NCBI GenBank assembly: GCA_027946365.1
Contig: JAPEUQ010000001.1
Span: 124,001-188,000 of the forward strand
Length of the DNA stretch: 64,000 nucleotides
Origin: Kalmusia sp. IMI 367209
Taxonomy: Eukaryota > Ascomycota > Dothideomycetes > Pleosporales > Didymosphaeriaceae
Direction of reading: 5' to 3'
Part shown: in pieces, positions 1,770 to 63,200 of the stretch
How the letters are laid out: each line of letters opens with the position of its first letter
How positions within the stretch are numbered: position 1 is the first letter of the stretch
Position numbers and translations under genes: made by a program
The notes under the pieces: generated by a model
What the model was told of the DNA's origin: nothing
Seen by the model: only the letters and a program-made list of their open reading frames with translations
Database searches by the model: none

Positions 1770-2749
1770 CTAAGTACTAAACGTCTCTTCTGGCACAAGA
1801 AGTCCTTTTTGCATGGACGTCCTCTTTTCTCTGCTCCATGTATCAATCTGATCCCAATTTGCGCATTTACGCTGTGATTTAGAATGCAAGTCCAAGAATT
1901 GCGACTCGTTGTTCTTTGGCCAGGTGAAAGTGTAGAGGCTCAGATCACTTGAGCACATCACCGAGAGCCGTAATACCTCAACGCAATGATCTTGCAAGTC
2001 TATCAGTAAGGCATCCTTGATAGCTGGGGAATAATCGTCTCACCTAGATGCATGTACCAATAGTTCATGTCTTCCTGGTCCCACGTATTCTGCGTCCGGT
2101 GGCTGTATAAAAAGAAGCGCATTTTGTTCTACATTTGGCTGATTAGTCGAAGAGTTCAGAGTATTTTAAAGAGACAGGCAACACTCACCAGACAGTGAAG
2201 TTCATGATGAACGCCCAGGGCTGCTAGATAACCTCCACCTTTGACCTGTATGCTTTGCTCCGCATTGGCACCTTCCGCTAAAACCTCTTCTTTCGTCGCA
2301 TTGAAATACAAGTCTGTGCAAAACGTCAATCGCGAAGAACTCCATGTCAAGGACTACAGTACACACTTTGGAGTAACTTCTTCCAAGCAGCAGAGTTCAC
2401 GTCGTTTGGAGGACCCGAATACGACGTGTATTGTGTGAAATTTGTTGCATGATCGGTGCTCGTAACGCTTGCGAGCGTCGCTCGTAGTGTTTGCACTATG
2501 TATTCTTAGTAAAGTCGGAATGTGTCTATGTATCGTCTTCATACATCTGTTACTCTCTGCGAGAGGTGTCGGGGTAGTGAAAGGGGTTTTCCTAGTGATC
2601 AACGCTACTGCGAGAGCGACATGTAGTACAACGATGTATAGTGTGACGAGAACATAGATGCACTTCCGTCGCGCACTCAATCTTTTGTTGCGCACGCTGC
2701 TTAGCGTCTCCTCTGGAAGTAGCTTCTCTTCTTCTTCAAGCATCTTCAT
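1770..2749 (-). CDS. UstYa-like (DUF3328) membrane oxidase family protein
   Basis: Five exons are inferred: 2545-2749, 2367-2495, 2189-2313, 2044-2128 and 1770-1990, giving 254 residues. The introns are 49, 53, 60 and 53 nt with GT..AG ends. The first ATG of the frame is at 2749. Residues about 30-52 form a single N-terminal membrane helix (KCIYVLVTLYIVVLHVALAV). Then come a YSGPPNDVNSAAWKKLL segment typical of the family, and both diagnostic HxxHC motifs: HELHC at about 148-152 and HLDHC at about 180-184, the second followed by VEVLR..VMCSSD. UstYa-type proteins catalyse oxidative cyclisation or dehydrogenation in fungal RiPP and other mycotoxin pathways. The last acceptor (after 1991) was chosen because it restores the second HxxHC. 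The small secreted gene at 3195 is a possible substrate precursor. No tyrosinase or protease partner lies nearby, so the pathway is unproven. Confidence 0.85.
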
Positions 2750-3194
2750 CTCGGTGTTGGACAAAGTCCTCAACAATTGATACAGTCGGGGGGAGGGACT
2801 CTGTCCGTTGTCCGCTGTCCGCTAGGTGTGCGCGTTCTCGAATCTCCCAAAATCCTAGACCAGTCGGATCGGGGATGTGCTGTCCGCGCTAAGGTCACCG
2901 GTGCATGTAAGCTGATGACAAGGATGTATACATGGTGCATTCAGCCTTGCATGGCCGTGCATGCTCGGCTAGGAGGAAGTCTCGCCTGGAATCGAGAGTT
3001 GCACGACACTATGGAGCATGTGCTTGAATCGGCATCTCATCTAAGCGTGGCGTTCTTGGCCCCCGTTATGGCTGCAGCATCACATTGATTCTTTACCTGA
3101 GCTGTACCTTCATAGTTGACTGCATTCGTGGCCAGGAAACAACTTGTATAGCGCTGCTCTCCATACTGCTCGCTCCATAATCCAAGTCGCAAAT
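2750..3194. other. Divergent intergenic region
   Basis: This is the shared upstream region of the UstYa-like gene (left) and the small secreted-protein gene (right). Around 2800-2822 there is a short direct reiteration of a GTCCG(C/T)T unit. No gene is supported. Confidence 0.4.
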
Positions 3195-3537
3195 ATGCAC
3201 AGATTCTTCTCAACTCTCGCGTTCCTGCTTGCGCTGGCTATGTTCGCGAAAGCGATGCCGATCGCGAAGCCAAGTAGGTTTATCCCCATCACTGAGAACA
3301 TTGTTTCGACAATACCATGGCACATTTAAGCTCACAACTCTAGACCTACGCGAGATACATCTTTCTGAAGATTGCGAAGAGGCCGACAAAGTCATTAAAA
3401 GTATGCACATCCTCCCAATAATCTTCCAGGAACATACACTGATATCAATGTTAGAGAGGAGCAAATACGATGTCATAATTGGGGACTTCAATATCATGCA
3501 AATCCAGGCTCCGTGTTTTGGCTTCAAAAAGAACTAG
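3195..3537 (+). CDS. Small secreted protein with dibasic site, possible peptide precursor
   Basis: Three exons are inferred: 3195-3273, 3344-3400 and 3455-3537, giving 72 residues, with introns of 70 and 54 nt. The N-terminus MHRFFSTLAFLLALAMFAKA is a strong signal peptide. It is followed by an acidic spacer (SEDCEEAD), then VIKKR, a Kex2-type dibasic site, then a C-terminal peptide that starts SKYDVIIGDFN and ends CFGFKKN. The KKR is made across the second splice junction. It lies 445 bp from the UstYa-like gene and diverges from it. Signal peptide, spacer, dibasic cut and Tyr-containing tail is the layout of fungal RiPP precursors of the ustiloxin type, but only one candidate core is present where known ones are usually repeated. 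It could equally be a small effector or a chance model. Confidence 0.5.
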
Positions 3538-4809
3538 GGGCACAAGATTCTTGCAGAGCATATTCGTAGGAACAAAAGGTCCTAACAATAAATCCTAATC
3601 CAAGCCGCCAAGATAGGCCATGTACCAATGTATCAAATCCACAAAAATGATATGCTACATTACACAGATCATATTCTTTGCTGGCATTACGTTCACTTTC
3701 ATGTAACAAGATGATGATTTTGACTTCATTCTGTGTAAAACTCGTGATATGGATTCAATCGGATGAAATGCCGACGTCTTACAAAAGCATATGCAGGGTT
3801 GAGTAAGAACTCAATTTTTTGTTGAAGACCGATCATATGACCATGATGCACTTCGTACACCTTCGTATGCGGGGATTGTTCGTTCCGTCTCACAAAATAC
3901 GCGCATATGTCGCGGTGGTTGTATCGTTGAGGAACTACATCCGTAGTTGCATTTCTTGCTCTCATCCCACACACAAACTCTCATGCATAGGTCTAGATAT
4001 CAATCAGGAAGTACCTGTGTGCATGCTAGACTCAGCCTTTTCTGCGGTCTAAAAACGGTGCGTGATGTGGCCTGCAACGTTCTGTTACGCGATTGGTCAA
4101 GACAGGGTTGTAGAGCCGCTTTCATATATTAACCACCCATTGAACCATCTTGGCAAGTCAGCTCACCCACCCACCCTCTAGGCTGGACACCAAATTGATA
4201 GTCAAACCAGCGTAGTCCTAACCGTTCTGCGACTGGCCCCACATCGGACGTACAACTCGGAAGTCTTTGGGGCCAAGATATCACCATCGTCCAAGCTTAT
4301 TCGCGTGGCTGCGGAGCGACAAGCATGACCCCACTACCCGTAGGAAGACCATCAGGCCACAAGCGTTTGCTAAATTCTCATGCACACCCTATCGGTGGAA
4401 GTACCTAGCATGCGACACAGCCCCGGAAGGACTCGCAAGGGAGTGAGCGACAGTGACATAGCTAAGCGCCGACATCCTATCAAGCCTTCAGCCCAACGAC
4501 CCCAGATTTGGGAACTTTTGCAGCATGGCCGGCCAGGATCTTCGGCCTTGAACGGAGATCAAAGGTGAGCAAAGAGTGGTCTTGTCTGTGTTCTGCATGA
4601 GCGTATAATGGGTCTGATTTGCCGATGGGGGCTGAGCACGGGTGCGATTTTGGTTTGCTGGGTCGATACAGCCTTATATAAGGGAAGATCAGCTTTGCTG
4701 CACCGGGTTCGTGGTTCAGACAACCTTGCGCTGTTACACTGGGAGCTGCTGCTTTCTTCGCTACCTCCTTGTACCACTTCTCGCTTCGCAGTCTCGTTTC
4801 ATAGCCAAA
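3538..4809. other. Intergenic region
   Basis: No supportable gene. Several short open frames here lack signal peptides, domains or good splice partners. The right end holds the promoter of the SAT4-type gene. Confidence 0.4.
4675..4682 (+). promoter_or_regulatory. TATA box candidate for SAT4-type gene
   Basis: TATATAAG lies about 130 bp upstream of the ATG at 4810, followed by C/T-rich sequence before the start. The match is to the eukaryotic TATA consensus only. Confidence 0.45.
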
Positions 4810-6037
4810 ATGATTATTCACGCCCCATCAGTACCGACCATCATTGGTGTCATCACCTTTCTGCTCGTCTGCAATGTCTTCGCTGTGGCCTTGCGATTTT
4901 ATACTCGGCGAGCCTTGGGCCAGCGGCTTCAGGCTGACGACTGGCTCATGGTCCCAATCATGATTGGGACTTTTGGAGCAGCCGCTTGCCTGTTTCATGG
5001 TAGGTACAAACGAGTGCCAAACACGATCTATACTGATAAGTCAAGGTCTTCGAAGAGGATCTATGGGATACCGCTTTCAGCCTCCGATGGATGCTACAGC
5101 CGTGAAGGCTCGATCGGATGCCTACGCTGCAGAGTGGGTAATCGTGGAATCCAGGATGGTAAGACAAATTCTGTCGATGATTGGTACAATTGCTGACTTG
5201 AACAGCTTGAGTCCTCGTTCTTCTGCATCGTCATTCCGACGCTTGGTCTTATCAAGCTCGCCGTTCTACTTTTTTACCGTCGCCTGTTCGTCATTCAGAG
5301 GCACCTCAGTGACGCCCGCAACTTGATAATCTCCGGAATGATTGTCATTGTCATCATGTGGACTGTTGGATACACATTCGCCAAAGTGTTTGCTTGTGGA
5401 ACCAACTGGACGAGACCCTTCTATGACTTCGAATTCTCGATGGCTGTCTGTGTCGACACAATCAAGTTGGGCTACTCCTTTGCCATCTCAGACGTTATTA
5501 CGGATGGCCTCATCGTCTTGATTCCGATTCCATTGGTAAGCTAGATTAATTCCCAATCGTCCATGTCAAACATTGGTGCTGACTCGAGTGCAACAGATCT
5601 GGAAACTTCAACTACCAGTCGCTCAGCGTCTTGCAGTTATGGCTGTTTTTGCAGTGGGTCTCTTATCCATGGCTGCATCCATTGTCCGATTGTCAGTGGC
5701 AGTCTGGTTGCAGCACGTGACGTACGATCCTGAGTTCGATGAAGAACTCAACCTCACTGCTGAGCTCTTCTGGGGTCTCATCGAAGTTACGACCGCCCTT
5801 CTTGCCGCCTGCCTTCCCACTCTCCGGGCCCTCGTCAAAGTGCCCTTCATCAGCAGCACTATTCGCAGTCTCCAGTCGTTCCTTTCTATCGGCTCGAAGT
5901 CTCAGGGCTCCTCAGTCGACGCTCCAAAATCCCCACCTTTGCTGCAATTCGACTCTGCTGCCTCCGAGAAGGGAAGTGGACATATCGTCAAACAGTCAAG
6001 CGTTACGGTGTATCCTTCGAGTGTCGATGCGGTATAA
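4810..6037 (+). CDS. SAT4-type rhodopsin-domain integral membrane protein
   Basis: Four exons are inferred: 4810-4999, 5046-5158, 5206-5535 and 5597-6037, giving 357 residues, with introns of 46, 47 and 61 nt. About seven hydrophobic helices are visible, starting with IIGVITFLLVCNVFAVALRF and including CIVIPTLGLIKLAVLLFYRR, LIISGMIVIVIMWTVGYTF, FAISDVITDGLIVLIPIPL and LAVMAVFAVGLLSMAASIVRL. The family hallmarks are the RxYTRR after helix 1, the ADDWLM segment, and the IPIPL/IWKLQLP join, where the third intron falls. The C-terminal tail of about 60 residues is Ser-rich and cytosolic. This family includes PTH11-like receptor candidates, but no CFEM domain is present, so a receptor role is only a possibility. 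A second family member lies at 17234-18600. Confidence 0.88.
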
Positions 6038-6975
6038 AATATCAACTTATCATTCCGCGAGAAGATACTATGTAATGGTAACTAGGGGTGGGGGTACTTT
6101 AATGTATGATTCGATGTGACGAAATTTTCGTGACGGTGTTCAGACGGAAGTTCTTAGTCTTTAGCACGATACCTCATAGATCTCATTCTTCATTGGGCTA
6201 TTGGTGGGATATATGATGGGATATGAATACAAGCTGCATTCGCTTCAAAGCTTTTCACACAAGTAATATCCTATTGATGATCTCGTAGAATCTCTTTTTT
6301 TTTGACGACAAAAGATCGAACATCCTAATATTGCGCCTGTGTCTTTTACCCAGCGACTACTCTTGCAACATATTCTACCATCTTCTCAGGAAGTCCTCAC
6401 ATTGTGACTTAAGGTCGATTGAATTTTCGCTGCTAAGTCAGACCGCGACGCTAGGTATTATCACTGGCATAGAACTCACCGTCGATCCCAATATGAGCTC
6501 TAAAAGCGAGCCGACCGTAAGCGAGCCGTCCAAGGTGATAATTGTGGGTGTTTACAGATATATAATCTTGATAGTCTCATTTTTTCCGGTAGCATCAGAG
6601 ATATGTCGTCAGTGAGGATCTTACGCTTTGATAAGCGGCTGTAGAGAGAATAAGTGAAGTTGAGAACGGGGAATCATCGATGTGGAAATTAGCGTGCAAA
6701 GCAAGCGATAGACTATATCAAACTAGGAGCTAAATGGAAGGTTGGACCTATTTACTTTCTTAAATGCGGGACAAACTCATGCTAGAGCCAGGCGTGTATT
6801 CTAGATATTCGAAAAGTGTAAGATCTCGGTCACATGAAGGCGCGAAAACGGCAATGGTACTAATCCGAGATTGGTAAGTTCCACAGAGCCTGGCTACTGC
6901 CTGCAATCTGCCCAACTTCCTGCCACCCACAAATTGTTGTTTTAAACTCTATCGAAAACAAAATTGGAACTTGTG
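6038..6975. other. Intergenic region
   Basis: AT-rich. One 94-codon open frame (6331-6615) has no recognisable features and is not called. Nothing else is seen. Confidence 0.4.
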
Positions 6976-24997: not shown

Positions 24998-27509
24998 CTA
25001 GAAGAGACCCTTTCTTATACGAATCTTTGCTAACATATGTGTCAACTTTGATCCCTTGCCCACGGGCAACTTTACACCACGTTTATCTACCTTTGGAGAA
25101 AGGCTCGCATTGAGATGGTCCGTGTCCTGCGCTGCAAGCATCTCTGAATAATTTCGGTAACAGGCAAGGGTATGCGGATGATCTTCCCCAAAAACGGCGC
25201 GGTACCCAGCGTATGCTCTTTCATACAGAGTGGAGGATTCATGGTAGCGATGCTGTTGTGAAAACATATAAGCGAGATGATACACGCTCGTCAGTGTGCC
25301 TGGATGCTCAGGTCCAAGCACGTTCTCCCTCCGCCCGAGTATCCGCCTGTGCATCCGTTCCGCCTCTTCGTGTTTGCCAGATCTGTGAAGCACAATCGCT
25401 AAGTTGCTCATAATTACTAACAAATCTGGATGCTGAGGCCCTAATACCTTTTCTCCCGTCGCTAGCGTCTGTCTATTCATCCGTTCTGCCTCTTCATACT
25501 TATCTTGGTTTTGTAGCAATAACGCAAGATTGTTCATGGTACCGAGCGTGCCTGGGTGCTCAGGCCCAAGCACCTTTTCTTCCGTCGCCAGCGTCTGCCT
25601 ATACATCCGTTCCGCCTCTTCGTACTTACCTTGTTCATATAGCAAAAACGCCAAATCATTCGCGGTATTCAGCGTGTCCAGATGCTCAGGCCCAAGCACC
25701 TTCTGCTGGCCCGCGAACGCCTGCCAACACATCGATTCTGCCTCCTCATACTTGCCTCTCATTCTTTTTGCGATCCCTAACATTGCCAGGTTGTTCAACG
25801 TCTCTGGATTATCGTTTCCAAACAACTCTCTCCTAACCTCCAACGCTATCGTTGACATCTGCTCCATGTCGTTTATTTTACCTCTTCTCCATGCGTACCA
25901 TGCTGCCTTATATAGTAACGAGGCCCAGTCTGCGAGGGACTCTTTATCATTAGGACGTTGTACTAATGCCGCCCGTGCATGTGGGAATAGCGCCTGGCAT
26001 TTCTTCCAATTCTCTGGTTCTCCTATAGGCAGTTCCGCATCTAGACGGAAGATGAATTGCTCCCTCCATCTATCGAGTTGGCCCTCGTTTTCTAGCCATT
26101 TGCGCATGGCCAGCTGTACTAGGCTATGCATTTCGAACGTGTTTATATTACTCGTAATCTTGATGAATGAATAGTCTCGAAGTGTAAGAACATCCTTCTC
26201 AAATTCGTCATCGATACTGATAGCTGAAACGCTGACATCATCATCCCTATTTTCTGCATCACTCCATGCTCCGTCTCCGTCTTCTCCCCCACTCTCGCTA
26301 TCACCTTCGTGTTCATTTGGTGTTCTCTCTTTACGGCGGAGCAAATCTTCATGAATTCCCTGTCGGTCGAAGAAGCTCATAAGCGACAGCAGATCTGCGG
26401 CTGATTGTCTGCTATTCCTTAAGTGATTAAACGATATCTGCCACGTTATGAGGATAGAATTGCTGGCTGCTTGGTCTCGACGTAAATGACCTGCCTCCTG
26501 GTTTAGTAGGCTTGTCTTCTCTCTGTCACTCCGCCGGTAGTCCTCCAAGTATTGCTGGACTGAGTATCTTGGCGCTCGTCTCCGGATGTGCGCTGCCGCC
26601 TGTATAAGAGCGAGCGGCATGAAATCCAACGTTTCAGCCAGCTCAGCGATATTACTGTCATTTTCCCCCGTATCTCCCAGCTTAGTACGAAGGAGAGCAT
26701 ATGCAGCCACATGGTGCATAGGCTCGATTGGTATAATGTCGTCGTCTTCTACGACCTGCCTTGCCGCATGATGTGTCCGACTAGTCACAAGTATAGATCC
26801 GTGTCTACTTGGAGGCAGATACCTTGACAGGTGTTTCCGCGGAGCGTGGCTGCTACTGCTGTTGTCACCGTCATCTTTCCGCATTCCCTGACTGTTACTC
26901 GGAGGCAGGGAAAGAACGGTAGCATCGTCTGCATTGTCAAGGATTAAGAGCCATGGTCCGTTTTTCTCGTTGCAAAGCCAGTCGTGAACCAGCTTGAATA
27001 CATCGGCTTGCGGGTCCTTCCGGCCGCGAGCCTTGATATGGTCTGCTATATCCCGGTAACTTTGCTCGAGTCGAGCAGTATTGCTAGCGTGCACCCAGAA
27101 CACCCACGTAGCCAGCGACTGCTCAGCAGTGCGATAGCAGTGCTCGATGGCCAGCTGCGACTTTCTGTGCCTACGTTAGGTGAGCCCTAACATGAGGGTT
27201 TATCCGCCTACCCAACGCCGCCCAGGCCCACCAGCGCTACTCGAGATGCTGGCGCAGAGCATCGCTTGCGTATCTGATCGAGCAGTGTCCCACGGTCAAC
27301 AAAGTCTGGGTCGCGCCGGAACGGTATGAAGCACGAAGGTTGTGGTGGGGTTTCGGGACGTTCTACACAGACACATTAGCGCAGCGTTTGCCTAGCAACA
27401 GCGGGTACTTGCCAGCTGCAGCGACGTAGACCGAGCCAGTATTATCTCCGATCTGCAACCCTTGGTTTCTTGCGCCTGCAAAATTAGTCGTGATGCTATG
27501 GGGAGCCAT
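24998..27509 (-). CDS. NOD-like receptor: amyloid-like motif, NB-ARC, TPR repeats
   Basis: Three exons are inferred: 27413-27509, 27212-27362 and 24998-27164, giving 804 residues. Residues 15-25 read NQGLQIGDNTG, a short motif shared with the neighbouring HeLo protein. Then comes ERPETPPQPSCFIPFRRDPD and the NB-ARC ATPase, with P-loop GLGGVGKS at 78-85, WVFWVHASN, Walker B WLLILDNADD at about 154-163, and the downstream SRYLPPSRHGSILVTSRTHH sensor region. About residues 505-760 carry some six 42-residue kinesin-light-chain-type TPRs (GKYEEAERMYRQTLATEEKV and LGPEHPxTL repeated). Intron 1 uses a GC..AG donor (GCAAGT) and separates the motif exon from NB-ARC; intron 2 splits a P-loop Gly codon. 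Fungal STAND/NLR proteins sense non-self or stress through their repeats and oligomerise. Divergent pairing with a HeLo gene suggests it triggers that effector by templating an amyloid fold. The role is inferred. Confidence 0.9.
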
Positions 27510-27765
27510 GGCATTGCTAATGTATTGCGAAAGTCGCGCGCAGAAACCAGCTGCTCTTGTGCATCAGGCTGTGTCGGCTGGCTGCCAGCATGTTCTATTT
27601 TTATCCATGTCTACGCGCGCCATCCATCGCAGCCTGTCTGCCGCGGATGCTACTCTCCAGTGTCGAACACTGATCTTGTGCACAGTTGCCAGTCGAAATT
27701 CTTGCGCCTGCGCCTATTTTTTTTTTTTGTTTTCCTCGTCCCTCCCGCGGCTTCAGCAAAACAAC
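27510..27765. promoter_or_regulatory. Shared divergent promoter of NLR/HeLo pair
   Basis: Only 256 bp separate the two divergent starts. It holds a 12-T run at 27717-27728 followed by TTTT and a C/T-rich stretch just before the HeLo start. Such pyrimidine tracts are common in fungal core promoters. No TATA box is obvious. Confidence 0.5.
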
Positions 27766-28566
27766 ATGGCAGAAGCAGCAGGCCTTGCCGTCAGCCTTGT
27801 CGCTCTAGCCAGCTTATTCAACAACACAGTCGAATGTTTTGAATTCATCCAAGTCGGTCGCGCATTTGCAAAGAACTATCAGACGAGCCAACTCAAGCTC
27901 GATAATGCGAGGCTTCGTCTGTCGCGGTGGGGCAAGTCGTTGGGCTTAGGCGACAACGTCCAAAATACCACGACGCTCGTGGGGCATTTCGAGTCGCAGT
28001 CAACAATCGATCATGCTGAGTCTCTACTTGGTCAGATTCTTGAATTGTTTGCTGAAGCCGAAGGTGCGTCGAACAAGTACAGGAGCAGAACAAGGCCGGA
28101 AGACAGTAGCCACGCAGTATGCAATCCGCAGACAGACTTGGATCCAGCCATGGCAGAGCTCCATCGCAAGCTAAGGCAGCTGGCCATAGAGCGTCAGAAT
28201 CGGACTAGCTTACGGCAAAAGGCAAAATGGGCTTTGTACCAAGAAAAACAGTTCAGACGACTGATCGAGGATATAACGGACCTCGTTGACAGTCTGGTAG
28301 AGCTGTTCCCGGCCAGTCAGCAGTCTCAGCGTGAGCTCTGCAGCGAAGAGGTGACTGCTGTCGAGGGAAATGAAGCTATCCCGGTATTGAGAGAAATCGC
28401 CGCTGCCCAGGACACGTTATTGGAGGAGGCGTTTGCGAAGGCTGCGGATAATACAGGAAGGTCGCATCACATCGTGTTCTCTGGTAGTCATAATACTGGC
28501 GTCCAGATCGGACACAACTCGGGTACAATGTCGGGGTTCACGTTTGGGAGCGTCGGTTCAAGCTGA
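27766..28566 (+). CDS. HeLo-domain protein with C-terminal amyloid-like motif
   Basis: A single exon encodes 266 residues from ATG 27766. This start was chosen because it begins the HeLo domain; the open frame runs upstream to 27490 through the promoter. Residues 1-30 form the hydrophobic N-terminal helix (GLAVSLVALASLFNNTVECF), followed by family-typical FIQVGRAFAKNYQTSQLKLD and ARLRLSRWGKSLGL, and then helical segments to about residue 215. The last 30 residues are Gly/Ser/Asn-rich, with NTGVQIGHNSG at 243-253 and GFTFG after it. In HET-S and relatives the HeLo domain is a membrane-damaging death domain, triggered when a C-terminal motif adopts an amyloid fold templated by a partner NLR. 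The partner here is the divergent gene at 24998-27509, whose N-terminus carries the same motif. Confidence 0.88.
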   Translation: MAEAAGLAVSLVALASLFNNTVECFEFIQVGRAFAKNYQTSQLKLDNARLRLSRWGKSLGLGDNVQNTTTLVGHFESQSTIDHAESLLGQILELFAEAEGASNKYRSRTRPEDSSHAVCNPQTDLDPAMAELHRKLRQLAIERQNRTSLRQKAKWALYQEKQFRRLIEDITDLVDSLVELFPASQQSQRELCSEEVTAVEGNEAIPVLREIAAAQDTLLEEAFAKAADNTGRSHHIVFSGSHNTGVQIGHNSGTMSGFTFGSVGSS

Positions 28567-60262: not shown

Positions 60263-63200
60263 GTTGGCAGCAGCTAGGCGCACGAGATGGGGTTATTAGA
60301 AATTACGTGGACCAGTCAGGCCGCCATGGATGCCGGACTGGATAGTGGGGGGCAGTAGTGGTGGTGGTAGGGCAGGTCACGTGTAAGCGAGCGGGCCGGG
60401 GGAAAATTGGCGCGGACGAGCTCAAAGGTTTGAGGGGAACGGACGCCTATGTACGCGGTCAATAAATACGGTAACGCACCGCCTTAGCGGTTCGCTCGCG
60501 CACGGACCCTCACCAGCACGGCCGTTTCAGGGACGAAAATCTGATTTTCGCACGCCGTCTGCCATCACCGCCGCCCCGATTTTCCATCGTTTTTGCGGTC
60601 GCATCGCCGTCGCGAGCCCGTCGCGAGCCTCTTGGACATGTTGTCTGCGTCGCCGCCGTTGTGCGCGGCGTCGCGTCTGCCTTTCTTGAAACTGGACAGG
60701 TCATCACCTAATCACCCACGCGCACGCTAGCCGTGAATCATCAACGCTTGGGGCACTTCTCTCCCGCTTCCATGCTGCAACACCGACGCGTCCACGATAC
60801 CAACAGCACTGCAAGGCCGTCCTCCTGCTCCAAAGACGCTGCCTGTTGCGGTGCACATCGCATGCGCGACCCCAGATCAGCTACGCGAGGCTCCAGGCAC
60901 CGGTGATCTTCCCCTCGGTCGAATAGCCATGCATCCTCTGCCCCCAGGCCGCAGCTTTCCTCCACACGTCTGCACCACCCCTGCACGAGACGCCCAGCTG
61001 CACACCCGTGTTGCCGTCGATGCCGCGACAATGAAGACGCGTAGAAATCCTATCGGCGACATGTCTTACTAGATGTTCACGGCGCGTCAAACGGCCGTCT
61101 ACGCAGATCCTTCCCAGCCTTTGGGCAACCCGGCTCCAAATTGGCCGTTGATCTACTGCGGCTGACCGCTAGCGCGTCGTCTGCCATCACCTCCACGTCT
61201 TTTCGCGCTATCACTGCAGCCTCTTTCCCCTCCCCATCAGCATTTGCGCATCAGGCTCTCTGCACTCAACCTTGTTCTAGACATATTGCATCGTTCGCGC
61301 GAGATTCTCTTTGCTTTTACAGCCTTGAGTCCATAGCCTGCCGGCTCTCCGCTCGTAGTTCGCATGCACGGAGCGAGGCGGGTAGGTTGCGGGAGCGCGC
61401 ATACTTTCTTTGTGACCCTAGGAGGCCTCACAGTTCTGGGCAACGGCGGTGACAGGTCGAAGGTTGGATTCACCGACGAGTGCGGGATGGTGGGGAAAGC
61501 GGCAGGGTTCTCAAGCCCCCAGCATCGTCCATTGGACAGCATCGAAACCCAGCATCGCTTTCGGAGATCCTGTCTTGTCTCGTGTTATTCTCCATCTCTT
61601 CTTTGATGTTCCACGTCACACGACCCTGAAATCTGCAAGATTCAATCCCGAGCCAAGTGCATACATGTGCACCGAGCATGGACGCTGTTCACGTGACTCC
61701 GAAAGTTTCAAGGTTCCGCACGTAGCCGCCTCGGAGGCTCCCGACCGCTCTTGGCAGTCTCTATGGCAGACGCGTGCGACATACCAACTAGATTGCAGAC
61801 CGGGAACCCGCATTCTATACAGACTCTTGCAGAGCAGGGGAGCGATGTCGGCATCCTCGACACTCTCAACAACCCGATCGGGTTCCGGCGCGAGTGAGCG
61901 AGCATCGATATAAGCACCAGCTCTACAGCAGCTGTCTTCCTCGGCTAATGCTCAATCGACTGCGAGGAATGGTCAGTCAATAAAGCATTCACAGATGGCA
62001 TACGCCCCAGCGTGCATTTGTACCCAACGAATTTGGCCTGTTGTGCTCGTCAACGAATAGACCCCCTGTGCGTCAGCTTTGCTTCATCAGCTAAATCTAT
62101 TTCTATGGTAGATACACATACACAGCTTCATCGTCCATGCGCGACAAGTGCATGAACGGAGCAAAATCCAATCGAAGGGCGTAGTAGTCAACGCTGCAGC
62201 AATGTGGTGAGCAGCAATGTGCAGGTGGGCTGAGGCTGCAATCTTTTTCTCTGAAAGTTGCGTAGCGAGGACGAATAGCGAATTGAATTGTGCTAAAATG
62301 CGATAGGAGCGAGCAGGCTGCAAGGAAGCTGCATGATGCACGGGGATATGCCTGTCATTCATGTCGCCTCACTTAATGTCCGAGTGTGGCCAATCAAGGA
62401 CCGAACTGGCCAAAACTCTTTCAAGACACGATAAGATCGCGATCCTAGTGTCCCGAAGATTTAGATTACACGCACCCCACTACCTTTTAATGATTCAGTT
62501 GCCAAACGGTCCTCCCGATGTGACAGCTTTTCTGAGGGAGCCCGTAAACAGGTTGGTGAACCAGAAGTATACTGCTATCGTAAAGGCTGCATAGAGAGAC
62601 TAAGACTGCTCTATAGTGATATGTTACGAATGATTGGAATGAGTCTGGGCGAGATTGTGTGTTACATCAACGAGACGATCAAAGTACCTCCAGATGAGAA
62701 TAAGAAGGTCGAGATCGCTTCTAGTGCATCTGTTTTTTTCATTCCGTGTTGATTTGATTCCAGTGCCGCTGTAGCAGCTACAGAAGGAGAGGTCTGATAC
62801 TAGGATAGGATAGAGAGGTAAGCGACACTAAAAGCATGACTTATGGCTGAACACGCCATTAAAGAAGCTTCTATAAGATCAACCTTGATCAATCACTTGG
62901 ACCAGTTCTCAATATCGGATACCAAAGTAGTGGTTTGAAGCTCCTAATACTCACGATATTCTACATCGTCGGTGTCTGCACGTGGTGCAGAACCACCGTC
63001 ACGCTCCAGGGCAATCCAAGCCAAAGCACATGTCCGCTCAATGATCTTGTTTCGAATGCCCCAGCTTCCCAATGCATCTCTGTCGTTGTTGCTTGCGCTC
63101 AAAGCTGCACAGTATCCCTAGGTCTCGACCCGCATTTTAGAATCGTTGACAAGCATATGAAACTTACTTCGACCGCTCAACATGATATTACGTCCGACAT

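Follow-up and report, generated by a model that had tools for sequence, protein, structure and literature searches.

A divergent pair of NLR and HeLo-domain genes sharing a PP motif in a fungus of the Didymosphaeriaceae

The 64-kb stretch of Kalmusia sp. IMI 367209 DNA analysed here (the window; contig C1, positions 124001-188000, of a 42,784,582-base assembly from a member of the Pleosporales, Didymosphaeriaceae) contains, head to head, the gene of a NOD-like receptor (NLR) and the gene of a HeLo-domain protein, its putative effector, whose products share a short motif of the pseudo-palindromic (PP) type. The effector gene (27766..28566, plus strand) is a single exon extending from the ATG at 27766 to the stop at 28566 and encodes 266 aa; its model is supported by the translation, by a match to Pfam PF14479 and by structural and fungal homologues. 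The receptor gene (24998..27509, minus strand) starts with the ATG at 27509, its stop codon ends at 24998, and its 804 aa product is encoded by three exons (27509-27413, 27362-27212, and 27164-24998), a model that follows from splice enumeration, the joined translation, NB-ARC-type motifs and matches to TPR families, the splicing being predicted from sequence and not from RNA. The start codons are separated by an intergenic region of 256 bp (27510..27765), and the gene models in this way bear out the divergent arrangement and spacing described in a first-pass annotation made from the DNA letters.

The first predicted receptor intron (27363..27412, minus strand; GC-AG, 50 bp) takes up nucleotides 98-147 of the open reading frame, and the second (27165..27211, minus strand; GT-AG, 47 bp) lies within the P-loop codons. 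Splice enumeration yielded many alternative first introns that preserve the reading frame, and two among the listed alternatives join the exon with the PP motif to the stretch RPETPPQPSCFIPFRRDPDFVDRG. The intron with donor GCAAGT (27412-27363), which also retains the residues SVYVAAA, was chosen because relatives of the receptor (e.g., database proteins P0121 and P0127) pass similarly from the motif to this stretch. The 804 aa model is contained in none of the 120 database receptors listed in our search.

The effector consists of a HeLo domain and a C-terminal PP motif. The former (residues 6-200; 27781..28365, plus strand) matches PF14479 with E=5.8e-54. A sequence search against solved structures (E<=0.001) retrieved only chains of the ‘small s protein’ (2wvo, 2wvn, and 2wvq), with the best match to 2wvo_A (E=2.9e-36), and 2WVO is named as a HeLo structure of this family in a review (PMC12881547; here and below, papers are cited for those parts of their text that were at hand). 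By sequence, the effector HeLo domain is thus akin to the solved HET-s/HET-S HeLo chains. No HeLo-like (HELL) family was found on the effector in a Pfam scan at E<=1, and hence the protein is not a HELLP in the proper sense. The C-terminal motif FSGSHNTGVQIGHNSGTM (residues 238-255; 28477..28530, plus strand) is covered by a match of residues 233-257 to PF17046 (Ses_B; E=1.2e-8, 35.0 bits), and the same stretch scores 37.3 bits for this family in a six-frame search of the genome.

At the N-terminus of the receptor, the PP motif FAGARNQGLQIGDNTGSV (residues 10-27; 27429..27482, minus strand) was recognized by its strict core and by PF17046, for which this stretch scores 25.7 bits, above the cut-off, in the six-frame genome search. 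The body of the receptor carries GLGGVGKS at residue 78, LLILD at 155, GSILVTSR at 205, MPLAL at 265 and MHSLV at 428, which we take to be NB-ARC-type motifs in their expected order. Pfam matches to NACHT (23.3 bits) and NB-ARC (20.7 bits) are weak, each below its cut-off, and those to TPR families are strong and above the cut-off. The TPR array (about residues 585-741; 25190..25660, minus strand) is delimited by the best TPR stretches, with coordinates derived by hand from the exon map. With its P-loop, NB-ARC-type motifs and TPR, the receptor combines a domain of the NB-ARC/NACHT kind with superstructure repeats.

Residues 15-25 of the receptor (NQGLQIGDNTG) and 243-253 of the effector (NTGVQIGHNSG) are identical at seven of 11 positions, exactly as the first-pass annotation had it. 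When all ungapped 18-residue matches are compared, the best one, both between the 60-residue tails and between the entire proteins, is that of FAGARNQGLQIGDNTGSV with FSGSHNTGVQIGHNSGTM (9/18 identical, BLOSUM62 score 55). None of 20,000 shuffles of both tails reached this score, the maximum being 41. In six frames of the window, the pattern N.G.Q.G.N occurs only at these two tags. The five-residue core G-hydrophobic-Q-hydrophobic-G appears a third time on the minus strand at 61006 (NTGVQLGVS), without the second N-x-G arm.

The suggestion that this may be a distinct motif class was not upheld: N-x-G-x-Q-x-G-x-N is the core of the PP motif as published in a 2022 survey (NxGxQxGxN; PMC9815663), and the consensus FxGx(x)NxGLQLxGxNxGxL was printed already in 2012 (PMC3321046). 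Both tags fit the latter except that each has I for L after Q with no residue between it and the next G, that the effector tag has V instead of L before Q, and that the last consensus position is occupied by V or M. We take PF17046 to represent the PP motif, judging from where the profile matches and not from the Pfam entry text. Of the motif classes compared here (PP, HRAM, and PUASM), PP is the one that agrees, since PF17046 is over its cut-off on the effector and, in the genome search, on the receptor as well. Membership in the HET-s-related amyloid motif (HRAM) class was ruled out: the pair has a single PP motif and a TPR receptor, and the Pfam scan gave no match to the HET-s prion domain at E<=1. 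The PUASM pattern (FxGxGxQxxGxGxF on PNP_UDP effectors) is likewise unmatched in a by-eye reading, as the effector is a HeLo-domain protein with the sequence FxGxHNxGxQ. On sequence grounds, then, the tag of the pair is the published pseudo-palindromic, RHIM-like motif.

The pair is conserved in related fungi. Database searches retrieved 291 proteins with the effector and 1160 with the receptor, and the best 120 of each were listed, the window’s own effector included. Apart from the latter, listed effector relatives are 60-79% identical to it, and most are annotated with both PF17046 and PF14479. Genera named among the matches listed include Zopfia, Clathrospora, Alternaria, Pyrenophora, and Curvularia; Mytilinidion, Cenococcum, and Puttea are represented beyond these. 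The pattern N.G.Q.G.N is present past residue 180 in 103 of the 120 listed effectors (102/119 without the own protein) and within the first 90 residues in 55 of the 120 listed receptors, 79 of which have G.Q.G. Linkage of the two genes in relatives was inferred from contigs of equal size: at least 17 of the 119 other listed effectors are encoded on a contig whose length exactly equals that of a contig with a listed receptor (matched by eye). The shortest contigs with a linked effector and receptor have 15,966 and 19,857 bases, and in Puttea exsequens the two genes have consecutive locus tags (MMC21_002716 and MMC21_002717). In a 421 aa metagenomic prediction (P0092), TPR repeats run directly into HeLo and PP, which may mean that the gene caller read through from one tandem gene into the next, or that the fusion is real.

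Gene pairs of this architecture have been described. In Arthroderma otae and A. gypseum, HeLo genes adjoin NB-ARC-TPR genes and both carry PP (PMC3321046, 2012); as in our pair, the motif is C-terminal in the HeLo effector and N-terminal in the receptor, the difference being that the host here belongs to Dothideomycetes. The HELLP/PNT1 system of Podospora anserina is also a two-gene cluster with a PP-NB-ARC-TPR receptor (PMC7885112). Its effector has PP at its end and is of similar size (271 aa vs. 266 aa), and the intron of PNT1 occupies nucleotides 95-148 of the reading frame, compared to 98-147 for the first intron here. It differs in that a HeLo-like (HELL) domain takes the place of the HeLo domain PF14479 in the Podospora effector, and in the single intron reported for PNT1, against two predicted here, of which the 47-bp one (27165-27211) interrupts the P-loop codons. 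The HELLP/SBP/PNT1 cluster of Chaetomium globosum similarly joins a PP receptor with a PP membrane-active effector (PMC7885112, PMC5485727), while in our case the window lacks a third PP gene and no PP lipase (SBP-like) lies over the PF17046 cut-off genome-wide, although a degenerate or intron-split copy could escape this search. HET-S/NWD2 of P. anserina resembles our pair in its HeLo domain and overall logic, but its receptor is of the NACHT-WD type and its motif is a doubled 21-residue HET-s motif, in place of the TPR receptor and the single PP found here (PMC3321046, PMC7885112, PMC12881547). The nearer animal relative of the motif is RHIM (PMC7885112): the G-(I,V)-Q-(I,V)-G core of RIP1/RIP3 corresponds to GLQIG and GVQIG of our pair, whereas conserved N and G arms on either side of the core are a trait of PP and the protein architectures are unlike. 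TPRs do stand here in place of WD repeats, as the first-pass annotation had stated, but PP pairs with an NB-ARC-TPR receptor were already described (PMC7885112, PMC3321046).

Results of our analysis make it highly likely that the two genes form a PP-motif NLR signalosome; the proposal of a two-gene NLR/HeLo amyloid-signalling pair with TPR as the repeat domain is supported by the domains, the shared PP motif and the adjacency of the genes. The mechanism is very probably signalling of the HELLP/PNT1 type. The receptor would detect a ligand with its TPRs and oligomerise via the nucleotide-binding domain, upon which its clustered N-terminal PP segments would fold as amyloid and impose this fold, by templating, on the PP segment at the C-terminus of the HeLo protein. 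Templating would free the HeLo domain, and the converted protein would move to the plasma membrane, attack the membrane of the fungus itself and kill the cell, as in the case of HELLP/PNT1. While both genes, their domains, the shared motif and its PP identity, their adjacency and their conservation in related fungi are established here, amyloid formation, templating, membrane damage and a role in defence or allorecognition are suggested by work on relatives. In Podospora, the PP segments of HELLP and PNT1 show prion behaviour, and that of PNT1 activates HELLP (PMC7885112, 2021); the HELLP segment also fibrillises in vitro and partially cross-seeds with human RHIM prions (PMC7885112). Since the PP consensus, the Arthroderma pairs and the Podospora prion data are all published (PMC3321046, PMC9815663, PMC7885112), the pair belongs to a known kind: the tag and the type of gene pair have been previously described, and the locus exemplifies, cleanly, a cell-death switch that is already known. 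As a Dothideomycete case of PP/RHIM-type death signalling it is well defined and conserved, has a true HeLo, and not HELL, domain, and has solved HeLo relatives. It is suited to asking whether cross-seeding occurs between PP tags from different classes of effector.

Several observations weigh against assigning this mechanism to the pair. Cognate tags are reported to be more alike than non-cognate ones in sigma and HRAM pairs, a feature that does not define PP in the literature at hand. The covariation check named in the first-pass annotation was run on 15 pairs, namely the window pair and 14 of the 17 linked effectors; left out were the pairs that receptors P0121 and P0125 form with effector P0083 of Alternaria burnsii, whose model does not include the motif end, and the pairs of receptors P0184 and P0180 (models without the N-terminal exon). 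It gave no signal: cognate tags are identical at 10.67 of 18 positions and non-cognate ones at 10.59 (permutation p=0.41), and the Mantel test agrees (r=0.17, p=0.17). This counts against a simple expectation of co-evolution. Effector tags, however, are nearly invariant, being alike among themselves at 14.26/18, above their likeness to the own receptor tag in all 15 rows (receptor tags among themselves: 11.56/18), and in the Podospora/Chaetomium study PP identity within clusters is no higher than between species (PMC7885112), because of which we read the null result as low power and not as refutation. As Podospora and Chaetomium PP tags also cross-seed across species (PMC7885112) and are reported to be about as alike between as within clusters, a conserved, interchangeable tag is plausible. 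Further, the strict motif was not found where sought in 17 of the 120 listed effectors and 65 of the 120 listed receptors, the cases without it being partly incomplete gene models and partly core changes, and among receptors also proteins of other kinds or models without the first exon. Core changes occur even in linked pairs (Q->N in effector P0009, G->A in effector P0109, Q->D in receptor P0176, and G->E in receptor P0146). In the whole-protein scan, the PF17046 match on residues 4-27 of the receptor reaches 20.5 bits, below the 23.2 cut-off, and the GC-AG intron that links the tag to the nucleotide-binding domain is a prediction.

One alternative is that the shared tag is an ordinary, non-amyloid homotypic binding segment that joins effector and receptor with no templated conversion; a short common motif is by itself no proof of amyloid. 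We regard it as very improbable, given that the PP segments of Podospora and Chaetomium behave as prions, with fibrils and partial RHIM cross-seeding in the case of Podospora HELLP (PMC7885112), and that the tags of our pair retain the N, Q, and G residues of the pattern together with its core, G-hydrophobic-Q-hydrophobic-G. The notion of a chance neighbourhood of the two genes, with a motif likeness due to coincidence or composition bias, could draw on the abundance of NLR-like genes, of which 98 matching stretches were found in the genome at E<=0.001, and on the single match of the strict 27-base PP pattern in the backward control. Yet the forward genome of 42.8 Mb has four such matches, two of them at this pair, no shuffle of the tails matches as well as the tags do, the PF17046 cut-off is passed only at this pair among the five candidates scored, and same-contig pairs recur in other species; at the level of sequence, chance is in our view already refuted, and we give it practically no credence. 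A different question is whether the same molecular mechanism serves heterokaryon incompatibility, i.e., self/non-self recognition, and not defence against other organisms. HET-s/HET-S governs allorecognition death in Podospora (PMC12881547), but the paper on Podospora HELLP draws no natural incompatibility role from its synthetic system (PMC7885112), and the effector family with its tag occurs in many related fungi, so that we consider such a role rather unlikely, though clearly less so than the two preceding alternatives.

The wider value of the locus comes from further PP-tagged genes in its genome, above all the TPR/PNP_UDP pair on C28 described below. Besides the window pair, the strict pattern matches on contigs C25 and C23; the match on C23 lies in a frame about 50 codons long, for which no partner was seen. 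A relaxed PP pattern gave six matches, a raw count not above chance because the backward control also gave six; five were accepted on their context, as they stand at the start or end of a coding frame, and the sixth is on contig C12. In total, three further PP-like tags were found at two other loci, one on C25 and two on C28. The C25 tag, MASSTSFDHSNSGVQVGNNYGTL, heads a NACHT/NPHP3_N frame (PF24883, E=4.8e-31) near 1269443 (L021 4500-649, minus strand), to which it is joined via a predicted 117-bp GT-AG intron. Its PF17046 score (21.2 bits) is below the cut-off. The NACHT frame is followed by an in-frame stop and a 670 aa WD40 frame, and the stop may reflect an intron, a second gene or decay. 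No second PP tag was found by a pattern search of the surrounding 9 kb, nor on contig C25 with the relaxed pattern.

The locus on C28 (1739942-1746346) is a tandem of a PNP_UDP gene (L037 443-1543) and, 567 bp downstream, a gene of an all-TPR protein (2111-6847). The former encodes a 366 aa PNP_UDP_1 protein (26.9 bits; cut-off 25.1) that ends with SNSSNNSGVQVVHYTGSMKNIF and four further residues; this tail is absent from the five matches of the PF17046 genome search. The latter encodes 1578 aa, with NYGLQIAYNHGSV in its head (PF17046 21.5 bits, below the cut-off); it is otherwise TPR, and neither NB-ARC nor NACHT was matched at E<=0.01. The frame is identical to database protein P0241 (100% identity, equal length). 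Its first 200 residues are matched by seven database proteins, itself included, out of 553 candidates. All seven have the pattern NYG.Q[IV].[YF]N.G[ST][IV]SNYF in the first 80 residues, which reflects conservation among the relatives found and not independent recurrence, because the stretch was in the query; one of the seven (P0246) has a P-loop-like pattern. Over 22 columns, the two C28 tags share seven identical residues (score 36) and are no closer to each other than to the other PP tags of the genome, and since they are not especially alike, their pairing rests on adjacency. PP has been linked to both pore-forming and enzymatic effectors (PMC9815663). In the parts of the literature at hand, no PP sensor without a nucleotide-binding domain was found, a statement that is confined to those parts and claims no wider absence. 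The C28 TPR/PNP_UDP pair is a more novel lead than the window pair. A speculative idea, which we think improbable on present grounds, is that in this fungus the window pair and the C25 and C28 tags belong to a common PP network; if the tags cross-seed, the window HeLo executioner would gather inputs from several receptor types, and the C28 pair would represent amyloid signalling without an NLR-type switch.

The closest paralogue of the receptor in the genome is encoded on contig C15, near 423791-426324 (L023), and is 52% identical over residues 82-692. Database protein P0207 corresponds to this locus, 53 of its 55 twenty-residue blocks being read there in frame, and has a HET domain (PF06985, E=8.5e-11) at residues 27-117, which precedes the same kind of nucleotide-binding/TPR body; no PP pattern occurs within the 9 kb surrounding the locus. 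The replacement of PP by HET fits the alternate split and all-in-one layouts that have been published (PMC3321046).

Other HeLo genes are also present. One on contig C7 (L031 3178-4167, minus strand) is divergent from a NACHT/NPHP3_N frame (5015-6271, plus strand). Its tail, YKNFKIRGSGTINIGD, looks similar to YENFIVDSTDSNIHVGD from a small upstream frame, and this likeness was rejected as not significant, being equalled in 1093 of 5000 shuffles ungapped and in 302 of 5000 gapped. Around each of two more HeLo genes (L029 3733-4701 and L030 3334-4488, both minus strand), no PP pattern was found within 8 kb, and the frame adjoining the L029 gene appears, by eye, to encode ankyrin-like repeats.

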